Shown here in pieces: positions 1,789 through 60,149 of a stretch of DNA of 64,000 nucleotides. The DNA is taken from assembly GCF_000003815.2 (NCBI RefSeq), contig NC_049980.1, positions 20,569,436-20,633,435 on the forward strand, read 5' to 3'. Position 1 is the stretch's first letter. Every line of letters begins with the position of its first letter. The stretch comes from Branchiostoma floridae. Taxonomy: Eukaryota; Chordata; Leptocardii; Amphioxiformes; Branchiostomatidae. The notes under the pieces were generated by a model. It made no database searches, was not told where the DNA came from, and worked only from the letters and a program-made list of their open reading frames with translations. The translations under genes and the position numbers were made by a program.

Positions 1789-2368
1789 TCCTGACCTTCC
1801 TGGTATGAGGAACGGCACACCGTCTTTTCCATGGCACCAGACCAGTCATTGCGACCCTGGTGCTGCTTGCTTCCCTGGACATCAGCCTTCTATACATGTA
1901 CATTGATGATACAGGTTAATGGCCTTCAAATTCTGGAAGTACTACTACAGTACTCCCCCAAATACCCTTCACCTTTATTCTAAGCACTTATGTTTTTTGG
2001 TCACTGACACATTTCGTGACTATTAATTTGTTAAGCACAAAACAATGACTACTTTACAGTTAATTTAAACAAGGAGCACAGTCTACAGAAGTTGCACATG
2101 TCTGTACCACAGCTGCAGGTATAGAAAGTAGCCATTTCTAATCCACAATCCTGCCAAGTCCTGTATGTCTATTAGATATTCTGAATTGAAGTTCACATGT
2201 GATTTATTTTATCTTGGTGGACTTCAGGAATCTTTTGTATCATATGTGTACAAATGGTGAGGGTTATTTTTATTGATAAAGAGCATTGGGTATTCTACTT
2301 CAAACAGACTATTTAAGGTGAAGTCATATGTAAAGGTTTAAATGTTTATGAAATGTTTCTGTCTGCAG

Positions 2369-2668
2369 AATGCTGAGTCCATTGCAAGAGGCCGTGAACT
2401 CAAGTGCATGGGGCATAAAGATGTTCCGTCGTTCCAGAAGCACGTGATATATCAGCTGTTGGCAAACAGCGAGCAAGACGGCAACTGTGCCATGCTTGAG
2501 AACTGCACTTTTCCTCTTGCAACATCTTGGATCTTATGTGGGCACTGCCACCAATGGCTGCACTTGGAGTGTGCCGGATTCTCAAAGAAACCACGTGGTA
2601 CCTATGTCTGTGATGCATGTTCTGAACGCATTGCTGCCTGTCAGTGTGTCAGTCATGCCAGGGTTTAA
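2369..2668 (+). CDS. terminal exon with a PHD-type zinc finger (gene unassigned)
   Basis: The open frame runs through a good acceptor (TTTCTGTCTGCAG ends at 2368) and ends in TAA at 2666-2668, giving about 99 residues in phase 0. The C-terminal half has zinc-finger spacing: C near NGNC and LENC, then WILCGHCHQWLHLECAGF, then YVCDAC. This is the CxxC, W-x-H-x-x-C-x-G-F, CxxC core of a PHD finger, a module that usually reads histone H3 tails and also occurs in transposon-derived proteins. It ends soon after the finger in a short Cys-containing tail. Upstream exons were not found with confidence. It lies between the minisatellite and an inverted-repeat element, so it could be the 3' exon of a host gene or of a degraded mobile-element gene. 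Confidence 0.5.
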   Translation, partial: NAESIARGRELKCMGHKDVPSFQKHVIYQLLANSEQDGNCAMLENCTFPLATSWILCGHCHQWLHLECAGFSKKPRGTYVCDACSERIAACQCVSHARV

Positions 2669-18086: not shown

Positions 18087-18989
18087 GCTCACGCACGTTT
18101 GGCCACATGTGTGTATGTATTCGCTTGCGCGCGTATGAGGAGAGACAGGAAAAGTACAATGCAAACCATCAAACAATCAATTACCAAGAATGAAATGTTC
18201 ACATTTCTAGATTGTCCATCTGCACATACAGACTGAAATACATCCTACATCATAAATTGGACAAAGGTTGCATAGGTAGCAACTTGACACAACACAGTTG
18301 AAAGTGATGTAGTTTCAGCACAATGTGCACATGATTTGTTGATCCAGCACAGAAGAGTGGATAATGTCATGAACCAGCGTCAGACACGGGAAATGCAATA
18401 TTCAACTGAATGATATAAAATATTTTGTCAGATGGATTTTTCCTCCGCAGACGCGGCTCCTGGCGCCTGTGGAAAGCGACAGGCCAAAAAAGTCAATATG
18501 AGCGATCTGCACAGGAGTCATTACAATTTGTAATGACGAGGAAAGTGGTTGGAAGCCGGCGCACCCATGTAGCAGCCCGTGCGGCTATACGACAGTGATG
18601 GAGGAAGGATCTTCTTCGGTAAGCCTTGCCGGGCTATGACACTCCTGTCTCCAAGTAAGCTGGCTGTTGGTAAGTTGGGGAGCAAGAGTCAATATTGCCG
18701 ATATAGCGGACATTAATTACGGCTGAGGAACCAGCGGGTAGCTGGAGCCTGATATTGGGGCTGCGCCGCTTCCTTCAAGACGCTACTGACTCCAACACAG
18801 TGGAGGGAAAATCGTTGGAGGTCTTGACCTAATTATGTTGCATTGATCAGAAGTGAAATAGTTGCATTGTTAAGCTGTGCTTCCGCCTGGGCTGAACGCG
18901 ATGTGGTGACATTGGATGCGCTGGCCACATCCCTGGCGCCCCCCCTCCGAGCTGACGTAGGACGTGGGGATAATGGCGACGGTAACAGC

Positions 18990-20429
18990 ATGGCTGATGC
19001 TCTTGCCTCTCCTAGACCCATCTCGCTAACACGAGAAAACAACCCTCGTCGTGCCTTCCTTCTCGCCAAGCTGAGCTCCAAGCCCAGTCCTGACGAACAG
19101 GAACAGAAAAGTCCCAGCTTGAGCGCTTTCCTTCGGAAATTCAGCAAGTTTGGCCCGGACCTAGGGGAGAAGACCCAGCCCAGTCCTCAGCGGAGCATCG
19201 CTCCCCCACCGAGGATAAAACCCAGGTTACTTGGAGATGTCCGACTTGTCTTTAATGTGAGCGGTCGCCGCTTCGAGACATGGAAGAGCACGCTGGACAA
19301 ATTACCGGACACTTTTCTGGGAAGCACGGAGAAAGAAGCTTACTTCGACGATGACACCAAGGAATACCACTTTAACAGGGACCCTGAGATTTTCAGGTAT
19401 ATTTTGAATTATTACCGGACTGGTCAGCTACACTACCCTAAGTGCGAGTGCATAGATGCATACGACGCGGAACTGAATTTCTTCGGTCTTTCTGAATTTT
19501 CCATCAGTGAATGCTGCTACGAAGACTACAGTGAGCACAAGAAGCAAAGACATGAACAGTTACAGGAGCTTCTGTTGCCCGTACTTAACGTGCCCACTAA
19601 AGCCACAACCTTGCGGCAGAAGATGTGGAGCATTCTAGACGGTTCGAACGAGTCGGGCCACCCCTTGGCCCCCCTGTGTTACTATACCACAGGATTCTTT
19701 ATAGCAGTGTCAGTTCTGGCCAACATAGCAGAAACGATTCAATGTGGGGCCCTGCCTGGGACCACAAAGATCCTCCATTGTGCAGATAGGTACCCGAAGG
19801 TTTTCTTTACCATCGACACAGTGTGCGTGGTGATGTTTACAGTGGAGTACGTGACGAGACTATACTCGACTCCAGACAGGGTCCGATTCGTCAGGAGTCC
19901 GATGGGACTGGTAGACTTGGTGGCAATCTTACCCTACTACATCGGGTTGTTTTTAATGTCTTCCAAAACGGAGCACGGTGGCTTTGACTCGCTCTTTGTC
20001 ACACTAAGAATCTTACGCGTTTTTCGGGTCTTCAAAATAAGCAGACCGTCACAGGGACTACGGATTTTGGCTCAGACTATAAAAAGTTGCGTAGACGAGC
20101 TAGGGTTTCTCCTCTTGTCCTTCATGCTCGCCGTGGTTATGTTCTCGACATTCATGTTCTATGCGGAGAAACTCATGAAAGCACCTGTGACAGACTTCAA
20201 AAGCATCCCCGAAGGATTCTGGTTCATTTTAGTTACCATGACTACGCTAGGATATGGAGACATGCTACCGGTCACGTGGCTAGGAAAAGTTATGGCGGGA
20301 ATTTGTTCTCTCAGCGGAGTGATTTTGATCACCCTACCTGTGACAGTAATAGTGTCAAACTTCAATCGTTTGTACTGCCAAAATAACCCGGATATAGCCA
20401 AGTCTCCCGAGGCCACCCTGCTGGGATGA
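18990..20429 (+). CDS. Shal/Kv4-like voltage-gated potassium channel subunit, intronless
   Basis: One open frame codes 479 aa. The ATG at 18990 has a good context (AGCATGG). The frame is open further upstream only to a stop at 18825 and has no earlier ATG. Domains: a basic, Pro/Ser-rich N terminus (1-83); T1 tetramerisation domain (about 84-181) starting FNVSGRRFETW, with the H...C...CC zinc residues of non-Shaker Kv channels; S1 (234-251), S2 (270-292), S3 (306-323), S4 (337-359) with LRILRVFRVFKISR; S5 (370-391); pore with TMTTLGYGD (416-424); S6 (432-459). S4-S6 resemble Kv4 most closely: SQGLRIL, ELGFLL, FYAEK, GICSLSGV, IVSNFNRLY. Three features are odd: the S6 hinge reads PVT where functional Kv channels have PVP; only 20 residues follow S6, against a long C terminus in Kv4; and the hydrophobic KChIP-binding Kv4 N terminus is absent. 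It would act at the plasma membrane. PVT, as in vertebrate silent subunits, hints at a modulatory role, which is inference. Confidence 0.93.
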   Translation: MADALASPRPISLTRENNPRRAFLLAKLSSKPSPDEQEQKSPSLSAFLRKFSKFGPDLGEKTQPSPQRSIAPPPRIKPRLLGDVRLVFNVSGRRFETWKSTLDKLPDTFLGSTEKEAYFDDDTKEYHFNRDPEIFRYILNYYRTGQLHYPKCECIDAYDAELNFFGLSEFSISECCYEDYSEHKKQRHEQLQELLLPVLNVPTKATTLRQKMWSILDGSNESGHPLAPLCYYTTGFFIAVSVLANIAETIQCGALPGTTKILHCADRYPKVFFTIDTVCVVMFTVEYVTRLYSTPDRVRFVRSPMGLVDLVAILPYYIGLFLMSSKTEHGGFDSLFVTLRILRVFRVFKISRPSQGLRILAQTIKSCVDELGFLLLSFMLAVVMFSTFMFYAEKLMKAPVTDFKSIPEGFWFILVTMTTLGYGDMLPVTWLGKVMAGICSLSGVILITLPVTVIVSNFNRLYCQNNPDIAKSPEATLLG

Positions 20430-47712: not shown

Positions 47713-48475
47713 ATAATACGAGACAGTCCTCAAATCATCTTGTCCGTTGTAGTTTCTGTACTGTACATTGTGTACCAAATTACTACGTTGTTCCTGTGTA
47801 GAAAGGTATATCAGGTTTACGTTGACTCTGTCCAGATCATGTCGTGACACACTCACCTCCACTGGGAAGTCTGTAATGGCATATGGATATCACCTGAGTC
47901 ATACCCAAAGCTAACATATTGTAAATGCCCCGTGTGTTGTGTGTCCCATCCATCCGTAAAGAATAAAGGCTTCATTTTGAGTCGATTGTGACACTGAGAG
48001 TTACTCACTAAGAACCTGGCACCCACCCCATCAAGATTGATGATGTTTGGCTAACACTGAAAATCCATGTAACATAAGAAACTGGAGCATTTCTTTAGGA
48101 TCCTTGTCGACGACAGGGTGGTGGGGGAGGGCCTGGCCAGAATAAACACACGTGGCAGGAAAGTAAGAGCCAATTTCTTGGGGCTTAGACCGGGGTAGGT
48201 GGGATATGAGATAGTGATTGTGGAAGAGGGCAGGTTTGTTGTTCTTGGGCACTCTCTGCGCTAACGGGGTGTGAATCTTGTAAACATCGGTTGACATATC
48301 CAGGAGAGAGACCAAATCTACTGCGGACACCCGGGAAAACACGGATTACTCCGATTAGAAAGGGTGCTTTTGTAATCTCTAGTCCCTGACAATTTGAAGC
48401 TTTATTTTTGTTTTGTTTACCTAACGTTATACTGTACCTAAAGCGCATAACAGCTTCAGGTTCACAAGGGCTGGT

Positions 48476-48603
48476 ACAAGAACACTAGCCTGGTATCCAG
48501 CCGTAATATAGCTCCCGAGTCTCTTCTCTCCTGCCTCTTTGCAAAGAGAAGAGAAGAGACTCGGGAGCTATATTACGGCTGGATACCAGGCTACAAGAAC
48601 ACT
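48476..48603. mobile_element. perfect 106-bp palindrome with 11-bp target duplication
   Basis: The arms 48487-48529 and 48550-48592 are 43 bases each and identical in inverted orientation (AGCCTGGTATCCAGCCG... and its mirror). The 20-base spacer itself contains CTCTTTGCAAAGAG. ACAAGAACACT is repeated exactly on both sides (48476-48486 and 48593-48603). A 9-11 base duplication suits Mutator-like foldback elements. Perfect arms point to a recent insertion. Confidence 0.9.
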
Positions 48604-49292
48604 GCAGTTTTGCTGTATTAATTAAAATACTACCTTGGTCGAAATCTGATCATTTCTAGATTATCATTTTTGTTTATGTCAGCATAAACAAGATGTTATA
48701 GCGAACAGTCAACAGCTTGTTTAGTTATATTATTCGCAAATTCATATTCGTTATCTGAAATGTCAAGTTCTTCACTATGATAAGTGAAGATAATTGGAAA
48801 GGGATAAACCAGGACGGCATCTAAGTAACGTTATAAGATAATTAATTTCTTCTGCTGAATGCACAAAATAAGTCTTCATTCTATAGAGAGGGAGATGGCT
48901 TATATCTTGAATATTCTTATATAAGCAATATGTAAAATGAATGATAAAGAGATTTCATGTGTGTGTGTGTTGGTGCTATGGTCACGATTTTGAGTTGCAG
49001 GAAACTAGTGACATGCGGATTTTCGTGAATGATTAACTGATTTGCAAATATGCGACGTCATTGATGACGCTGACAACGGCGGGCTGCCCTAAGCAAGTAC
49101 GTAAGAAAAGCAAGTATGAAAAATACTCTACTTTTTCTGTGTGGGACAATTTTAATTCATCATTGAAAATATAATAAATACAAAAAAGAAAGCAATATTT
49201 TGTCTGAATCACGAAGTCAATGACTTTTTTTTATTACGACAAAACCTTGAAGTCGATGTCTTTGTGCGCATGCACCTAGCCATCTGACTAGT

Positions 49293-52200
49293 ATGGCACA
49301 AGCAACAATATGTCGTGCAAAAGTCCTGAACAAGCTGACTTTGGATTTTTTAGAAAAGCTTGGAAACATTGTTGAGAAATCACCCATGGTTTCCGCGGCA
49401 GTTTGGTCCAAAAGGTCGTTCTACAGCTTGCAGGGCGTCCATGACCATGGGGCAGTCTGTGACTTCATCGACGGGCTTCCAATCAACGGTGGGTGTTACT
49501 TTGAGCACGGCTTTGATACTTGAATTCATGTTCTGGACATGCTGTGGTCGTGATGTTTGAGTGAAAGGTTAGCTTGCTCTTGAACCAGAGAGTACGAGAT
49601 GTGGGATTGGCCTCCTAGCGGCTTTTCTCATTTACAGGAGAGTTCTACACCGAGTACTACCTGGTCTCTCTTACTCCAGTACATTGCCATACAAGGGACA
49701 ATAACAATTCCTACGGTGTGGTCTTACTATCTACATATGAGTAATATTTACATGCGATCCTAACGAACCAGTTACTTTGATACGTTCAACCGGTTTTTCC
49801 AGTTAGATGTTCTGCAAGTTCTTCTTGGCGCTGAGAGTCTCCCGTTTCCTGTTGGCCATACGCACCTAAAGCAGAAAAGAAAGAAAATAGATCAACAATA
49901 TGATTAGATATGACTTCCATGCCGAGTAGTAAAATTAATGCCCATGAACATTTAAACATCACTAAAACCCACCAGATTTGATATCCTAGGCAGCCCCGGA
50001 TTCGGCGCGGTCTCGTCCACCATGGCCAGCAGAGTTTCCTGCACAATGGTGTACGCTGACTTGAAGACATCTTCTACGGCTTTAGCGCGCACCTCAGCTT
50101 GAATCTGAAACAAAAACAAAAAAATATATTGAATTTTGTGTATCACGTTCCAGATCAAACATGAAGTTCAAAAGGATAGGATCACTAAGCAAAAATAATT
50201 GCTACATTTTGTACCTTAACATTTGTTAAGCAGTTGACCACCGGTGGGTGGTTGTGGAAGTTGTCGCCGCGTCGGAAGACCCCCGTTCTTTCCACCACGG
50301 ATGCAGGACACCTCCCCTTCTTCGGTCTTTTGGCACACTCCCAGTACCTCACGTTTGTGGCCGGTCTGCTGTAAAAAAAAAAAATTAAACTTATGCCTAA
50401 TTCAACCGCAAATTGAAAACGCAATTGTTGTGAATTGTGCCTTATCGAATTTGCCATTTGGAGTAGTCGATAGTAAATTACCTCCTCTTGATTGTGTACG
50501 CATAGCCTAGGTTATCCGTCAGCTTCGGGCGTCCTTTCTTCGTGCCCCTTTCGATGAACGTGAAGGTCACGTCCCTCTGCTGTCCAACCGGGAGATCGTC
50601 CTCAACGCGCACATCACGAATGGAGTCCTCCAGGGTGACATGGGGCATCAGGACCGAACCGTCTACGTGAGAACAGTCGGACACTTCGACGTTCTCCTCG
50701 GTGACGTGTTCCTCGGGGATGGTCTCGTAGGTCCCCCGTGTAGGCCGGCACCTGCTGCAGAGCCATTCTCCAAAGTCGACCTCCCCCCTGCGGATTTGCC
50801 TGTAGAAAGTCTGGGACATTCCTGCAAATACAATGTACAAATTAACGACCTTTATGGAAGTAGGTCACCCAATATAGAATTCTGACAATGAATTTCCACG
50901 TAGTGATATTTTTTCAAAGGATGATACTTACTTACTTGTTACTTGTTGATGATAAAGGCAAGCAAATATCAGTACTTACCGGAGTTACATGTCCTGTGCT
51001 GCCTCCTGTCACATCGGTCACATCGGAGTGTCTGTTGCCGTGCTCTAACAGTGCTGCCGCATACAACACATGGAGCCATGGTTGAGTCGATATGAATGAA
51101 TTCCTCTGGAACTGCCCTTTTAAAGGCAATAGAAAGTTGTCTTGCATACACAAGAGTTCCGAAAGTCTTTAAACACTGTCTTTAAACACTCAAAGAACGC
51201 GACAGGCCGCCTGTGATCTTTCATAAATTGAAGGAGTTGTCTGCGCTGTCACGCGCGTCTTTATTAACGTTGAAAACCCAAGCGCAAATCTCTTTGTAGA
51301 ACACGTATTCATGATGCATTGTATAACAGCAATGAAAAACCGCCTGTTATCTTTTGAAACTCATCTTCAAAAGATAAGTTGTCTAAACTGCATGATAGGC
51401 AAAGTGTAGTGCTTAGATGAATGTTTAATCGCCATGTTTTACCATTCTCAACGTATGTTCATGTACATGTATGTGTTCTTGGTGTGTTTTCTGACGCTTA
51501 TCTAAAATGTAGAGGTATATACTAATACATGTATGTACATATTCTGCGATGTTTGTATAGCATGTTGCAATGTAACTTGTACAACATGTAGCATGTTGCA
51601 ATGTAACTTGTACAACATGTTGTGGTGTAAATGGACCCTATATATGCCCAATATTGCTACGTTTAAGCTTATGTTGGAGCATGCAGCCGTCGTACTCATC
51701 TGGTGGTCTTTACGGCGGGGAAACAGTCCCCGTCGGCACAGTCTGTTCGCTTAAAAATCTGCAAAATTGTGGAAAAACACATCACACAAATATTACACAA
51801 ACTATAACATGTTATCATTTGTGGTATACACGCATCCTTCAAATGTCCACTCTGAAGTCAAATAAATGTATATCAATAAAAAATCCCATGACGGATAAAC
51901 GTCCACATAGACGGGGGAATGGCATAACTGGGAAAGGTCTAAATATCGCTGAAAAAGAGTGATGGATGTCGCTTGAAACGTCCGGTAGGAATCTCCGAAT
52001 CTTATCCAGTTGTAGAGATTGAATACCCTGAAGATACATAAACTTACGTGCGTACATTAACTAATCAATGAGAAACATGTGTAGATCTAATACCTCACTC
52101 GAAAAGGTTAACATCATTTGGCAAAGATATGAGGTCGTGGAACTCTAATTAAATCATCCTGTGTCAGGATTTGCAGTTAAAGTCAGATGTTGTCATGACT

Positions 52201-52617
52201 TTCACGTTCTTTTCCCTCTACAATTGTCCCCTCCCACAGGTTCCACAGGTAAAGAAGGCCTACTTCGCCGTTTTCCCGACTTGGCGGGAACTCTCGAGTC
52301 TGGCCCGAGAAGGGCGGCTGAGCTCGGAATCTACTGGAGAACAGCGGGCCGCGGGACTGCTAGATCTAACCACGGAGGAGCAGACCACCCGACTCAACTC
52401 GCAGTACAGGAGAAAATTCGGGGTTCCCTTCGTACTTTGCGCCCGTCTGAACAAGAAGGACGCCGTTCTGAAAGGGTTGAAGACAAGGATCAACAGCTCT
52501 AAGGAGGAGGAAATTAAAACTGGAATAGAGGAGGCCAAAAAGATCTGCTGGCTGAGGCTGGTGGATGTTCTACAGCGAGAACAAGTGGACATCATGTCTA
52601 AACTGTGGCACTCGTAG
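49293..52617 (+). CDS. URAD: OHCU decarboxylase (URAD), frame broken in exon 2
   Basis: URAD converts 2-oxo-4-hydroxy-4-carboxy-5-ureidoimidazoline to S-allantoin, the last step of urate oxidation, usually in peroxisomes. Exon 1 is 49293-49488: KVLNKLTLDFLEKLGNIVEK, SPMVSAAVWSKRSFYSLQ and CDFIDGLPIN match the family N terminus, and it ends in phase 1 at GTGGGT. Exon 2 starts at 52249 (or 52240; the two CACAG acceptors are 9 bases apart and in frame) and reads KEGLLRRFPDLAG. After PDLAG the conserved sequence continues only in the +1 frame: LAREGRLSSESTGEQ, RRKFGVPFVLCARLNKKDAV, EAKKICWLRLVDVLQ, stop at 52615-52617. So there is a net one-base gain (or two-base loss) between about 52282 and 52310. 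The catalytic His of the family's HPDLAG is Phe here; the Glu of the EST-x-EQ region is present. The C terminus reads SKLWHS, a PTS1-like SKL not at the end. It could be a pseudogene, or carry assembly errors. The 2.76-kb intron holds another gene on the minus strand. Confidence 0.85.
49803..51079 (-). CDS. PHD-like plus FLYWCH zinc-finger protein, nested in the URAD intron
   Basis: Exons on the minus strand are 51079-50980, 50821-50482, 50368-50215, 50104-49973 and 49865-49803. All are GT-AG with matching phases, 789 nt, 262 aa. Residues 1-60 form a PHD/treble-clef-like finger: CVVC, LRCDRCDRRQHRTC and LCSRC (C4, C7, C20, C23, H28, C31, C55, C58). Residues about 119-190 form a FLYWCH finger: GYAYTIKRS, RYWECAK, KGRCPASVV and NFHNHPP (C158, C167, H185, H187). 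The rest (IQAEVRAKAVEDVFKSAYTI, then PGLPRISNLVRMANRKRE) is helical and typical of proteins with this pairing. FLYWCH fingers bind DNA and also sit in front of Mutator-like transposases; no transposase domain follows here. The ATG at 51079 has a good context (AACCATGG); an in-frame ATG at 51151 would add 24 residues. All zinc ligands are present and there is no frameshift. Function unknown; likely nuclear. Confidence 0.82.
51545..51621. repeat. short tandem repeat in the URAD intron
   Basis: AGCATGTTGCAATGTAACTT followed by GTACAACATGT occurs twice in direct succession (about 51558 and 51590), a small local duplication. Confidence 0.8.
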
Positions 52618-53945
52618 TGATCGCCGTGACAATGTCAGCATATAACCGTGATAGAACTCCTTGGTTTCACCATAAACTTTGTCACCGCCGAAGACATTTG
52701 GAACAAATGACCACAACTCCTTATTTCACCGTAACTTTGTCACCGTTCATTCTCAAGCTGCACACATTTTTCTCTAAATTGGCATGACGAGGTAACCGAA
52801 CATCGATGGTAGAAACGCCAAAGTTTGTTTGCGCAAAGTGCGGAAACCGACGCCACTAATATTTGGTGTGATTTTCAAAACAATTCCCAATTCGCTAAAT
52901 ACCACAAAGCGGCGTAATTTATATATTTAAGGTTATTTTGGTGGGATGGAATGTCAGACCTTGTGCAGAAACCGTTACATTTGTGTCACGACTCGACGGT
53001 TCCTGTCAGGCAGGCTTTGTTGTAAAATTTACCTGGCAGGGCAGCAGCGACAGCTCTACTGATTACCGTGACATCACCGGTCCAAGGTGCTAAATCAAGA
53101 CCAGATGTTTGGGTCCAAGACAAAGTTAGGTCAAACACAATTTGGACACGACATTAATAACTGTTATGATCTCGGTACGGAACTGTGGGAAACCTTGAAC
53201 GCTCAAGGTACATTGGAACACTGCGAATGAAGGCATGCTACAAGATCAGTCATAATTTGGAGCCGCTTCAGAATTCGAGTGGAAGCCATGATTATGATCC
53301 TTCATGAATTTTTGTTATTGAATGGTTGGTGACAGACGTGATAAATCGTAGGTCACACCTATGAGATGTGTTGCCGCAATCTAATACTCAATAGGAAAAA
53401 GACATTTACATACCGGACATTTCTGTATGTCTGTATCACAACTGCAAAAATTTCAATCATTGAACGATAAAGTATCATAGCATTTTCCAATTGATTATGC
53501 AAATCGTGCCCTAATTTACGTCATTTACACCAAGACATGTCCGTGCCACCATGATATTCATATGATATGATTGTAAAGATCCTATAGACGTGTTATATTT
53601 TATAAGCGTTTGTAGCACACCCAGACCCTGTTTTCAATTTCAGAGCTACCTATACTCCTCCTTTTACTAAACTTTGGTATGACGTCATGCGGACGTTAAG
53701 AGTACTGCAGCGTGAGAGAAACTAATCCTCAGAAGGCAAGTTATCAAAGTTACAGAAGTAACGTCTGTTGGGAACAGGTCAGCAGGGAAAAGATCTGTAT
53801 GCTTTAATTATAAGATAGCAGAAAAACACTGTCCCAATCTTTCTAAAAATTTAACCGAAAAATTACAAAAAATTGCTGCTGTTTTCCAGAGGGAGTGAAG
53901 CGTACCAGCCATATACAGCCATATTAGGAGGTCGGCTGCTCTAAA
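52618..53945. other. intergenic, no gene seen
   Basis: This is the URAD 3' side and unique AT-rich sequence. CCTTGGTTTCACCATAAACT and CCTTATTTCACCGTAACTTT (about 52660 and 52720) are a loose 60-base duplication. No exon was recognised. Confidence 0.5.
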
Positions 53946-54394
53946 CACTGGCCTAGGGCTGGGTACCGGTACAGAAAATTCAGGTCCAGGTCCGGTTCAG
54001 GTCCAAAGGATCAGGTCCAGGTCCGGACCTGAACCTGGACCTGATTCAGTATGACTCATACCGATGGTCCATTTCACTACAAAGAAATCTGTCTGGTGGA
54101 GTATTAGACTTACACTGGCGTTTTAAAATCCTACAACGCTAACTGCACCTGTACGATTGGCTGTAAAACTTGGTAGAAATTACTATAAACTCTACTCTAC
54201 TTCACTCTTGTCATTTTCTTCCAACTGCAAGCGCCAAAACGTGTGAATGCCTGATAAAATGATATGTTAATTTTCTAATCGGTCCAACATCCGGTCCACC
54301 TAATTTTTTCAGGTCCGTTTTTTCTGGACCGGTCCAATAAGAAAAACCGGTTTTGTACCGGTACGCTGTACCGATACCCAGCCCTACACTGGCC
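53946..54394. mobile_element. hAT-type non-autonomous transposon with 8-bp target duplication
   Basis: CACTGGCC is repeated exactly at 53946-53953 and 54387-54394. Between them the element begins TAGGGCTGGGTACCGGTACA and ends with the mirror TGTACCGATACCCAGCCCTA. Ends of the form TAGGGNTGGG with an 8-bp duplication are typical of hAT elements. The left part contains an AGGTCCAGGTCCGG simple repeat and its mirror. It has no transposase. Confidence 0.88.
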
Positions 54395-58262: not shown

Positions 58263-58321
58263 CCTTGCAGGACTTGAATTATCTAGTTGAGACATGAGCT
58301 ACTAGAAGAAACACCACCGCC

Positions 58322-60149
58322 ATGTCCACAGGGACAGTAAGCACCGACACCGTCAGCGAGTTGGGCTACATGGATACGGACACTGAGGAGGAAGCTCTCG
58401 GCTCTGAAGTCATCCTCCACCGAGAAGGTCTCCCCCACGGCCCGCTTACAAACCTTACGAGGCCGTTGCGGCGGCGGGTGCGGAGAAAAAGGCAGGCGGA
58501 ATCCACGAAGTACTGTAACAAGCAGAAACCCGAACAGAGAAACGCCGCTAACGCGAGAGAAAGATCCCGAATGAGGGTTTTGAGTAAGGCGTTCTCCAAG
58601 TTGAAGACGACGTTACCCTGGGTCCCGCCAGACACCAAACTGTCCAAACTGGACACACTGCGCCTCGCCACGTCCTACATATCCCACATGCGGCAGGTCC
58701 TGGTGGGGGACAAGATGGTGGAACAGTCGCTCCATCCGCTGATGCTGGTAAGTCACTGATTGTAGCCATAACATACGGCATACACTACATTGCCATTGGA
58801 TTCGATTCCCCATCTCCAACATTCGGTAAAGAAAAATTATTGAAGTACAGTGGCCATCATAAAATCATAATCATAATAATTATAACGACAGTATTTAAGT
58901 ACTAACGCTGAGTTACAAAATCTGTTGAGTGGTGATTTTCATAGGCGAAGAACGATATGTTTTACTTTTTTGTGTTCTCCTTTGAATCATACTTTAACAT
59001 CGCGCATCATAGACCAACACGGGTCACACAAATCCAAGTTTGGTCGTTCAACGGTCTCTCAGCGATCGCTGTGAAATGGAAAGGGGCCCTTAATAACTAA
59101 GAGTAGACCTCGTTACGTTAGACGGTCTCATGGTGTTGTTAACCGGGTCAAGACAAGCTTACAAGATTGACAAACCTTTCATGAGGACTTGGCACCTCAT
59201 TACACAGAGACATGACCTTGTGACAAAACTATTTTTGCCAGCAACTGAGACAGTTGGATATAAGCCCGACTTTGCAGACTTTAAGGGATTTTCTGGTGGC
59301 CTTCCCTTCACCATAACCATTGCTTACAGGAAAAACTGTGACACGCAGGGAGACCCATGTAGGGGTACCGAAAACATCGTGGCTCTGATTTCTAGAAGAG
59401 ATACGAGGAGATTCCATAGTTGAAAGAATCTAGCTAAAAAGACATTTCCATAGTTGAAAGAATGTAACTAAAAGACAAAGCAACTTGAGTTCCACGACCC
59501 TATACCTTCGCTCAATGGTTTTAACATTTACGACTGATATATTGTGTTCCCCACGCATTATGCAATAAGGTCTTCATTTACATAAATTATATCAGTTGAT
59601 CATCTCCTTCACTCAAACAACAGAAGACAACCTTATCTTAGGAAAGAAGGCTATATTAGCATTTTCTGCTTATTTACAGTGTGTACCATTAGGTCCTCAT
59701 TTGCATGATTCTATTCAACAATATTCACCTTCGCGTAACCAAATGTCACAAGTATGAAATTCCCGTCACGAGTTTATAAAATGTGCTCATTAATTATGCA
59801 AGTTATATTCTGATTTGAATAATCACCATCAAATTATATCACTTAGTTATTTAAGCTATGTCCATACCAAGAATCATGACGATACGGCAACCCCATCTTG
59901 AATTATTGTCTTTCAAAGTCTGAAACTAAACCGGCTCCTGCAGTAAAGCCGCTAAGGAGCCCAAGCCTACATGTAAATCCCTTACTCTCTGCCTCTATCG
60001 TAAATAACGACTATAGTATTTCCAGAACTCAAGATGTCGAAACCAGAAATTCCACTGCAGTACCGTAACAAGCCGCTGATAGTTTCAAGGTCTGAGGAGG
60101 ACTACCTACATACCAAATACATGTAGCAATGTAATACACGCACACACAC

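Follow-up and report, generated by a model that had tools for sequence, protein, structure and literature searches.

A PHD-FLYWCH reading frame nested antisense in a decayed URAD copy of amphioxus: very probably the 5' half of an old, immobile Mutator-like element

Mutator-like elements (MULEs) encode a DDE transposase, often carry long terminal inverted repeats (TIRs) and make target duplications of 8 to 11 bp (PMC6446971). In the accessible text of that 2019 survey, FLYWCH is among the finger types of Phantom, and Rehavkus, known from arthropods and annelids, has a PHD finger together with a minisatellite ahead of the 3' TIR; in the survey's group table the PHD finger is entered for Rehavkus (PMC6446971). 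The same text states that MULE transposases could not be detected in Branchiostoma floridae, although a FLYWCH alignment had been reported earlier (Marquez and Pritham 2010) (PMC6446971). Here we analyze a stretch of 64 kb from this species (contig C2, positions 20569436 to 20633435, within a genome of 513 Mb and 431 contigs), referred to below as the window, in which the intron of a URAD copy contains an antisense five-exon reading frame with a PHD and a FLYWCH finger. The PHD finger is a chromatin-reading type of module, and the FLYWCH finger is a DNA-binding type. This nested "gene" is very probably what is left of a PHD- and FLYWCH-bearing MULE, namely its 5' half, lying antisense in the intron of a URAD duplicate and now immobile. 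Its relatives in the amphioxus genome seem to encode MULE transposases, which the 2019 survey did not detect in this species.

A previous sequence-only reading of the window had described a zinc-finger gene inside the URAD intron, and this nesting is real. The two URAD exons flank an intron of 2,760 bp (GT-AG, with GTGGGT as the exon 1 donor), and the antisense frame, with its phases and zinc ligands intact, runs from 51079 to 49803 on the minus strand. It encodes 262 amino acids in five exons separated by four GT-AG introns, and the exon start phases are 0, 1, 2, 0, and 0. On the basis of splicing and Pfam, exon 1 (50980-51079) encodes the first part of the PHD finger, exon 2 (50482-50821) encodes the end of that finger, a linker, and the start of the FLYWCH region, and exon 3 (50215-50368) encodes the FLYWCH finger. 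Exon 4 (49973-50104) corresponds to the region preceding the transposase domain, and exon 5 (49803-49865) begins like the transposase exon of the relatives and continues as a frameshifted tail. Both fingers score above their curated Pfam cutoffs (27.6 bits against 24 for PHD and 29.2 bits against 23.6 for FLYWCH). All PHD ligands are kept (C4, C7, C20, C23, H28, C31, C55, and C58), as are the four ligands of the FLYWCH pattern WxC..C..HxH at residues 156 to 187. Among solved structures, the nested protein gave weak matches to PHD fingers alone, the best being Pygopus (E 0.006).

Relatives were sought by searching the same genome with the 262-residue protein, and the counts from this search are lower bounds. 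The search returned at least 47 matching pieces, which we grouped into about 30 places, the window included. Among 20 relative loci examined, each with about 1.5 kb of flank per side, 15 had a match to the MULE transposase region (E < 1e-3); as the query came from one of them (L020), this amounts to 14 of the 19 others. The gene at C9:6.72M, with 594 codons in two exons, encodes a protein in which the MULE domain (PF10551; 42.2 bits, cutoff 27.6) and FLYWCH (31.7 bits) are over the cutoff and PHD (16.5 bits) is below it. This protein contains the stretches VDSTF, VMDFE, GCVFHW, and NNDLEGWH, which we take to resemble the signature of Mutator transposases (DDE and CxxH). Two further genes were spliced by hand, and in both the MULE domain is over the cutoff and PHD is below it; FLYWCH is also below the cutoff at C19:3.61M and is not listed at E 0.01 for C11:20.2M.

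Long TIRs were found in four of seven relative copies that were read with extended flanks. They measure 479 bp with 99.6% identity at C12:3.37M, about 490 bp with 95.8% identity at C19:3.61M, and about 320 to 350 bp with 84% identity at both C9:6.72M and C19:2.14M. Three of these four PHD-like-FLYWCH elements contain MULE transposase sequence, and one is internally deleted. Target duplications, checked only in the four copies with TIRs, are present in three of the seven copies overall: one of 8 bp at C12:3.37M and exact ones of 9 and 10 bp at C9:6.72M and C19:2.14M, two copies that are about 98% alike across roughly 4 kb. None was found at C19:3.61M. The TIR-bearing relatives are, or recently were, mobile. 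The sequence-only reading had suspected a Mutator-like origin because FLYWCH fingers often accompany such transposases; the relatives, among them PHD-like-FLYWCH-MULE genes within long TIRs and target duplications of 8 to 10 bp, and a degraded 5' TIR in the window bear this out. Moreover, the C19:3.61M gene and the nested gene have corresponding splice borders from exon 2 up to where exon 5 begins; the exon 1 donor of the C19:3.61M gene is less clear. Because these borders match those of a TIR-bearing element, the tidy phases of the nested gene were inherited from a transposase gene. A retrocopy is ruled out, as the nested gene has introns and these have counterparts in an element. A separate pair of loci, L027 and L029 (C9:15.9M and C1:6.97M), shows 98% near-identical sequence for the FLYWCH region plus MULE, with 90-bp tandem repeats in an open frame and a preceding stretch that reads N.

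The nested gene had been described as complete, and this part of the earlier description fails at the last exon. Whereas the frame of the relatives runs past exon 5 into the MULE transposase, exon 5 of the window copy matches the elements for about 30 bp, then carries a 2-bp insertion at about 49832-49833 (minus strand; aligned with the C5:22.7M and C19:3.61M elements) that leads the frame to a stop. This is followed by about 20 bp of weak match, and homology ends near 49812. As the insertion comes first and homology then ends, the stop of the nested gene is a product of the frameshift. The 3' flank of exon 5 matched transposase exons no better than shuffled sequence (91 and 136 shuffles out of 200 reached or exceeded the observed scores), and a tblastn search with the transposase region gave, in the whole window, nothing but a chance match (E 7.8) far from the nested gene. 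Thus, without a PF10551 domain, the window copy is a MULE-derived fragment and not a working MULE.

On its 5' side the copy extends well beyond the first exon. The noncoding stretch at 51080-51408 (minus strand) has main blocks that match the 5' regions of C11:3.38M, C3:13.2M, C11:20.2M, C12:3.37M, and C19:3.61M with 76 to 83% identity, none of these five relatives matching across the whole stretch. Next, at 51483-51632 on the same strand, come short repeats that also occur in the C3:13.2M and C11:20.2M copies (68% and 71% identity), and here Tandem Repeats Finder reported a 31-bp unit in two copies. Further out, still on the minus strand, lie two blocks of a degraded 5' TIR, whose scores were judged against 500 dinucleotide shuffles and against 76 control stretches, taken from 38 places in the window on both strands. 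The inner block (51696-51768) scores 23 against the TIR of C12:3.37M, compared with 16 to 17 for the best of 500 shuffles and 17 for the best control. The outer block (51884-51935) scores 22, compared with 18 for the best of 500 shuffles, and is colinear with the inner one. Both blocks exceed all shuffles and all controls, and the opposite strand was not outstanding (320 of 500 shuffles equal or better). Since the blocks are in the right order, the outer end of the element can be extrapolated to about 51963. The whole recognizable 3'-truncated copy then spans 49812-51963 (minus strand, both ends approximate), or about 2.15 kb of the 2.76-kb intron. A check for TIRs and target duplications at about 49.5 to 52.2 kb, as proposed in the sequence-only reading, recovers the degraded 5' TIR and no 3' TIR in 49000-49812, where the score was 11 on either strand, a value that 424 of 500 shuffles reached or exceeded for the expected strand and 407 of 500 for the other.

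Taken together, these features suggest that a full-length MULE inserted antisense into the intron of the URAD duplicate and subsequently lost its 3' part. The decayed 5' TIR, the 5' leader, exons 1 to 4, and the start of exon 5 of the transposase gene are retained, the catalytic domain and the 3' TIR are lost, and the 2-bp insertion in exon 5 supplies the stop. If the frame is transcribed, it would give a protein of 262 residues with a PHD and a FLYWCH finger and no transposase. Such a predicted protein could attach to the ends of elements, or to similar sites, and leave the DNA uncut.

The amphioxus relatives resemble Phantom in having FLYWCH N-terminal to the MULE transposase, long TIRs, and duplications of 8 to 10 bp, as far as the accessible descriptions of Phantom go (PMC6446971, PMC3169594). 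The FLYWCH-plus-MULE architecture of Phantom is present at C9:6.72M, a likeness of domain order. They differ from Phantom by an additional N-terminal PHD-like finger, and the window copy differs further in lacking the transposase and the 3' TIR. With Rehavkus they share the PHD-like finger, which is over the Pfam cutoff in the window protein and below it in the three relatives scanned. Minisatellites occur at some of the loci: C19:3.61M has an array of 123 bp in 5.5 copies ahead of its 3' TIR and the L029 locus has an array of 91 bp in 5.1 copies that reaches the end of the locus. In contrast to Rehavkus, the amphioxus elements also have FLYWCH, and no such array was listed between the stop and the 3' TIR of C9:6.72M. 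Among the literature matches listed, no paper described PHD-FLYWCH MULEs in amphioxus, Repbase and most subscription journals being outside the search, and such elements may already be catalogued.

The window copy does not look like a recent arrival. Its closest well-aligned relatives, C5:22.7M and C9:0.60M, are separated from it by a synonymous divergence (dS) of 0.88 to 0.91 and a nonsynonymous divergence (dN) of 0.22, so that roughly one in two synonymous sites differs even from the nearest well-aligned relative. The lowest dS among 16 loci compared was 0.59, for L039 (78 codons aligned). The protein tree sets the window copy apart as a single lineage beside C5:22.7M, C9:0.60M, and C9:1.39M, a grouping with support 62. 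This divergence, the 5' repeat blocks that are only about 70% identical to those of a relative, and the missing 3' repeat speak against the idea, raised when the nested gene was first noticed, that it had moved recently. A fresh insertion is ruled out by the absence of a close sibling together with the degraded TIR. The window MULE copy is old, has no close sibling, and is free of stops in exons 1 to 4.

The window branch looks constrained, with neutrality rejected weakly in the main data set and not in a smaller one. Pairwise dN/dS of the window copy was 0.19 to 0.30 against 14 of the 16 loci, dS being saturated for the other two. In the main branch model (7 sequences, 239 codons, topology from the later protein tree), dN/dS was 0.21 on the window branch and 0.18 in the background; a value of 1 gave twice the log-likelihood difference (2dlnL) of 5.62, and the fitted neutral length of the branch was 0.36 per site. 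Two decayed relatives served as controls: the L039 copy gave a fitted dN/dS above 1, compatible with 1 (2dlnL 1.1) and not with 0.2 (9.05), and L028, which carries a stop, gave 0.45 (2dlnL 3.08 against 1). A first branch test with six sequences gave 0.18 for the window branch (2dlnL 13.82) under an alternative topology without backing in the later tree.

Several results weigh against our interpretation of the locus. The window copy can show no target duplication, its 3' end being lost. PHD was under the Pfam cutoff in all three relatives scanned, and no TIR was present in the sequence examined of C11:20.2M, C3:13.2M, or C5:22.7M, the last being the closest well-aligned relative. Five of the 20 relative loci (L021, L028, L034, L041, and L042) had no transposase match in the sequence examined, and transposase-less copies of the family are thus not rare. 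In the six-sequence test, the dN/dS of the window branch was 0.32 and a value of 1 was not rejected (2dlnL 1.73), and C5:22.7M, a locus with transposase sequence, also looked relaxed on its short terminal branch. Because a copy of this kind gave such a picture, the contrast between the window copy and decayed copies is not clean. It is also possible that the constraint on the window branch could date from its life as an active element, as constraint after insertion is not isolated by these tests.

With the nested frame identified as a MULE fragment, two fates can be weighed. We lean somewhat toward a dead relic, that is, a copy that was truncated, frameshifted in exon 5, and has gained no stop yet in exons 1 to 4. 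When neutral evolution was simulated with indels excluded, 28% of the copies were still stop-free at 0.05 substitutions per site, the 2-bp frameshift is already present in exon 5, and stops were found in the aligned stretch at 5 of the 16 loci compared. Against this reading, the degraded TIR and the lack of a near sibling suggest old age, and the dN/dS of the window branch is unlike that of decayed copies. The stop-free fraction fell to 8.7% when the simulated divergence was 0.1 substitutions per site and to 0.6% when it was 0.25. As survival without a stop is this rare at 0.1 to 0.25, compared with a fitted length of 0.36, the neutral phase was probably a minor part of the window branch.

The other fate is domestication, in which the frame would be a PHD-FLYWCH regulator that owes its expression to the 5' region of the element itself, is under selection, and perhaps represses the parent transposons. 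We regard this as possible and would tentatively bet against it, and we are equally hesitant about the simpler proposition that the host now keeps a PHD-FLYWCH protein. The frame and splice sites are intact at the end of a branch of 0.36 substitutions per site with a dN/dS of 0.21, while two decayed relatives look more relaxed, and no copy is closer than a dS of 0.59, so the insertion is not fresh. The features needed for mobility, the 3' TIR and the catalytic domain, are lost in the window copy while the frame is intact. In other animals, transposon-derived FLYWCH transcription factors have been reported, in the accessible text of that work (PMC10027918), and the window copy, known here from its sequence, resembles them in keeping FLYWCH without a transposase. 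On the other hand, the C terminus of the frame is a frameshift product, the host gene is decayed, neutrality was rejected weakly with seven sequences or not at all with six, and the constraint may stem from mobile life. The suggestion of a domesticated gene in the sequence-only reading is thus far a possibility short of proof. A broader combined proposal is that the amphioxus lineage joins the Rehavkus marks (PHD and the 3' minisatellite) with the FLYWCH finger of Phantom, marks until now assigned to separate groups, and was recently mobile in a chordate, and that, in addition, the host has retained the copy in the URAD intron for a PHD-FLYWCH protein that lacks a transposase and is able to recognize and silence its parents. 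As a whole we consider this proposal unlikely.

The locus illustrates, in one place, how a transposon can leave behind an open DNA-binding gene within a host gene that is itself decaying, a step before domestication. Should the window frame turn out to be conserved among amphioxus species, a direct test of domestication would become feasible, with recently mobile elements of the parent type still present. The more general reward is that the locus leads to near-identical PHD-like-FLYWCH-MULE elements flanked by TIRs and target duplications in a chordate genome.

The host gene had been called damaged, and it is: the window URAD copy is decayed. Exon 1 (49293-49488, plus strand) together with the start of exon 2 matches OHCU_decarbox (PF09349) with an E value of 3.5e-4 and 21.6 bits, below the cutoff of 24, and the frameshifted exon 2 (52249-52617, plus strand) matches it with 79.3 bits downstream of the frameshift; position 52240 is an alternative possible acceptor for exon 2. 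The C11 and C5 copies align with both exons. The HPDL motif reads FPDL in the window copy, with TTT (Phe) at 52272-52274 (plus strand) in place of a His codon that is kept in the C11 and C7 copies and in the solved OHCU decarboxylase 2o70. This histidine is, we presume, catalytic. A three-copy alignment places a 7-bp insertion that shifts the frame at 52292-52298 (plus strand; placement within a few bases). A domain search found four URAD copies in the genome. The copy at C11:23.10M has an open frame, HPDL, and an intron of 395 bp, in the same two-exon form as the window copy; the copy at C7:10.6M has HPDL and three exons; and the copy at C5:0.39M (C5:394874-396951, L012) has FPDL and its own 1-bp frameshift. 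Thus, two of the four copies have Phe (TTT) for the histidine, with a separate frameshift in each. The phylogeny of the copies was without resolution, 17 sites grouping C2 with C5, 19 grouping C2 with C11, and 7 grouping C2 with C7. Pairwise dN/dS against the open C11 copy was low despite the lesions (0.24 for the window copy and 0.15 for the C5 copy). We take PRHOXNB to be a former name of URAD. For amphioxus PRHOXNB, the accessible text of one study mentions a reported intron gain in which the new intron carried a miniature inverted-repeat transposable element (PMC5802833), and our literature search returned no paper linking OHCU decarboxylase with Branchiostoma.

A separate question is whether the insertion itself broke the URAD copy. 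The nested element is present in this copy alone among the four, and neither the nested protein nor the first part of the transposase region had a match with E < 1 in the sequence examined of the other three loci. The exonic lesions are small and local (the 7-bp insertion and the Phe codon that replaces His), and this Phe recurs, together with a separate frameshift, in the C5 copy, where no insert was found. Because of these points nothing suggests to us that the gene was broken by the insertion, and we hold that explanation to be quite improbable. Rather, the MULE sits in a URAD copy that was, or became, dispensable. Least credible is an ordinary host PHD-FLYWCH gene unrelated to transposition and nested by chance, a highly improbable reading that fits the five clean exons and good splice sites and that we reject, as the splice borders correspond to those of a TIR-bearing MULE, a 5' TIR remnant is present, the relatives carry the transposase domain, and the last exon is truncated.

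Other repeats are present in and near the intron. At 49525-49626, a 100-bp piece is about 81% like the interior of a dispersed repeat of 1.35 kb, and on the far side of the MULE copy, at 52113-52147, there is perhaps a 35-bp match (83%) near the end of that repeat. Since pieces of it lie on both sides, the MULE may have landed in an older 1.35-kb repeat. This repeat has 39 other scored places and 993 candidates, seven compared copies (L044 to L050) are 95.7 to 99.6% alike, and no long inverted termini were found in it. ARAGORN found no tRNA in 49000-52700. At 48486-48593 there is a near-perfect inverted repeat of 47 bp with a 14-bp loop, which gave below-cutoff matches to several miRNA families on both strands. 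All 10 Rfam matches in 48000-54000 were under their gathering scores and lay over this palindrome (48476-48604), which is probably a short palindromic repeat. Elsewhere in the window, an open frame at 2342-2665 (plus strand) has a PHD-like finger under all Pfam cutoffs, the best match being an NSD-type PHD (22.5 bits, cutoff 27). The URAD copy is flanked by a potassium-channel-like gene (BTB_2 and Ion_trans) at 18828-20426 and a basic helix-loop-helix (bHLH) gene at 58298-58756, both on the plus strand; we take the former to resemble the Kv type and the latter the musculin/Tcf21 type.

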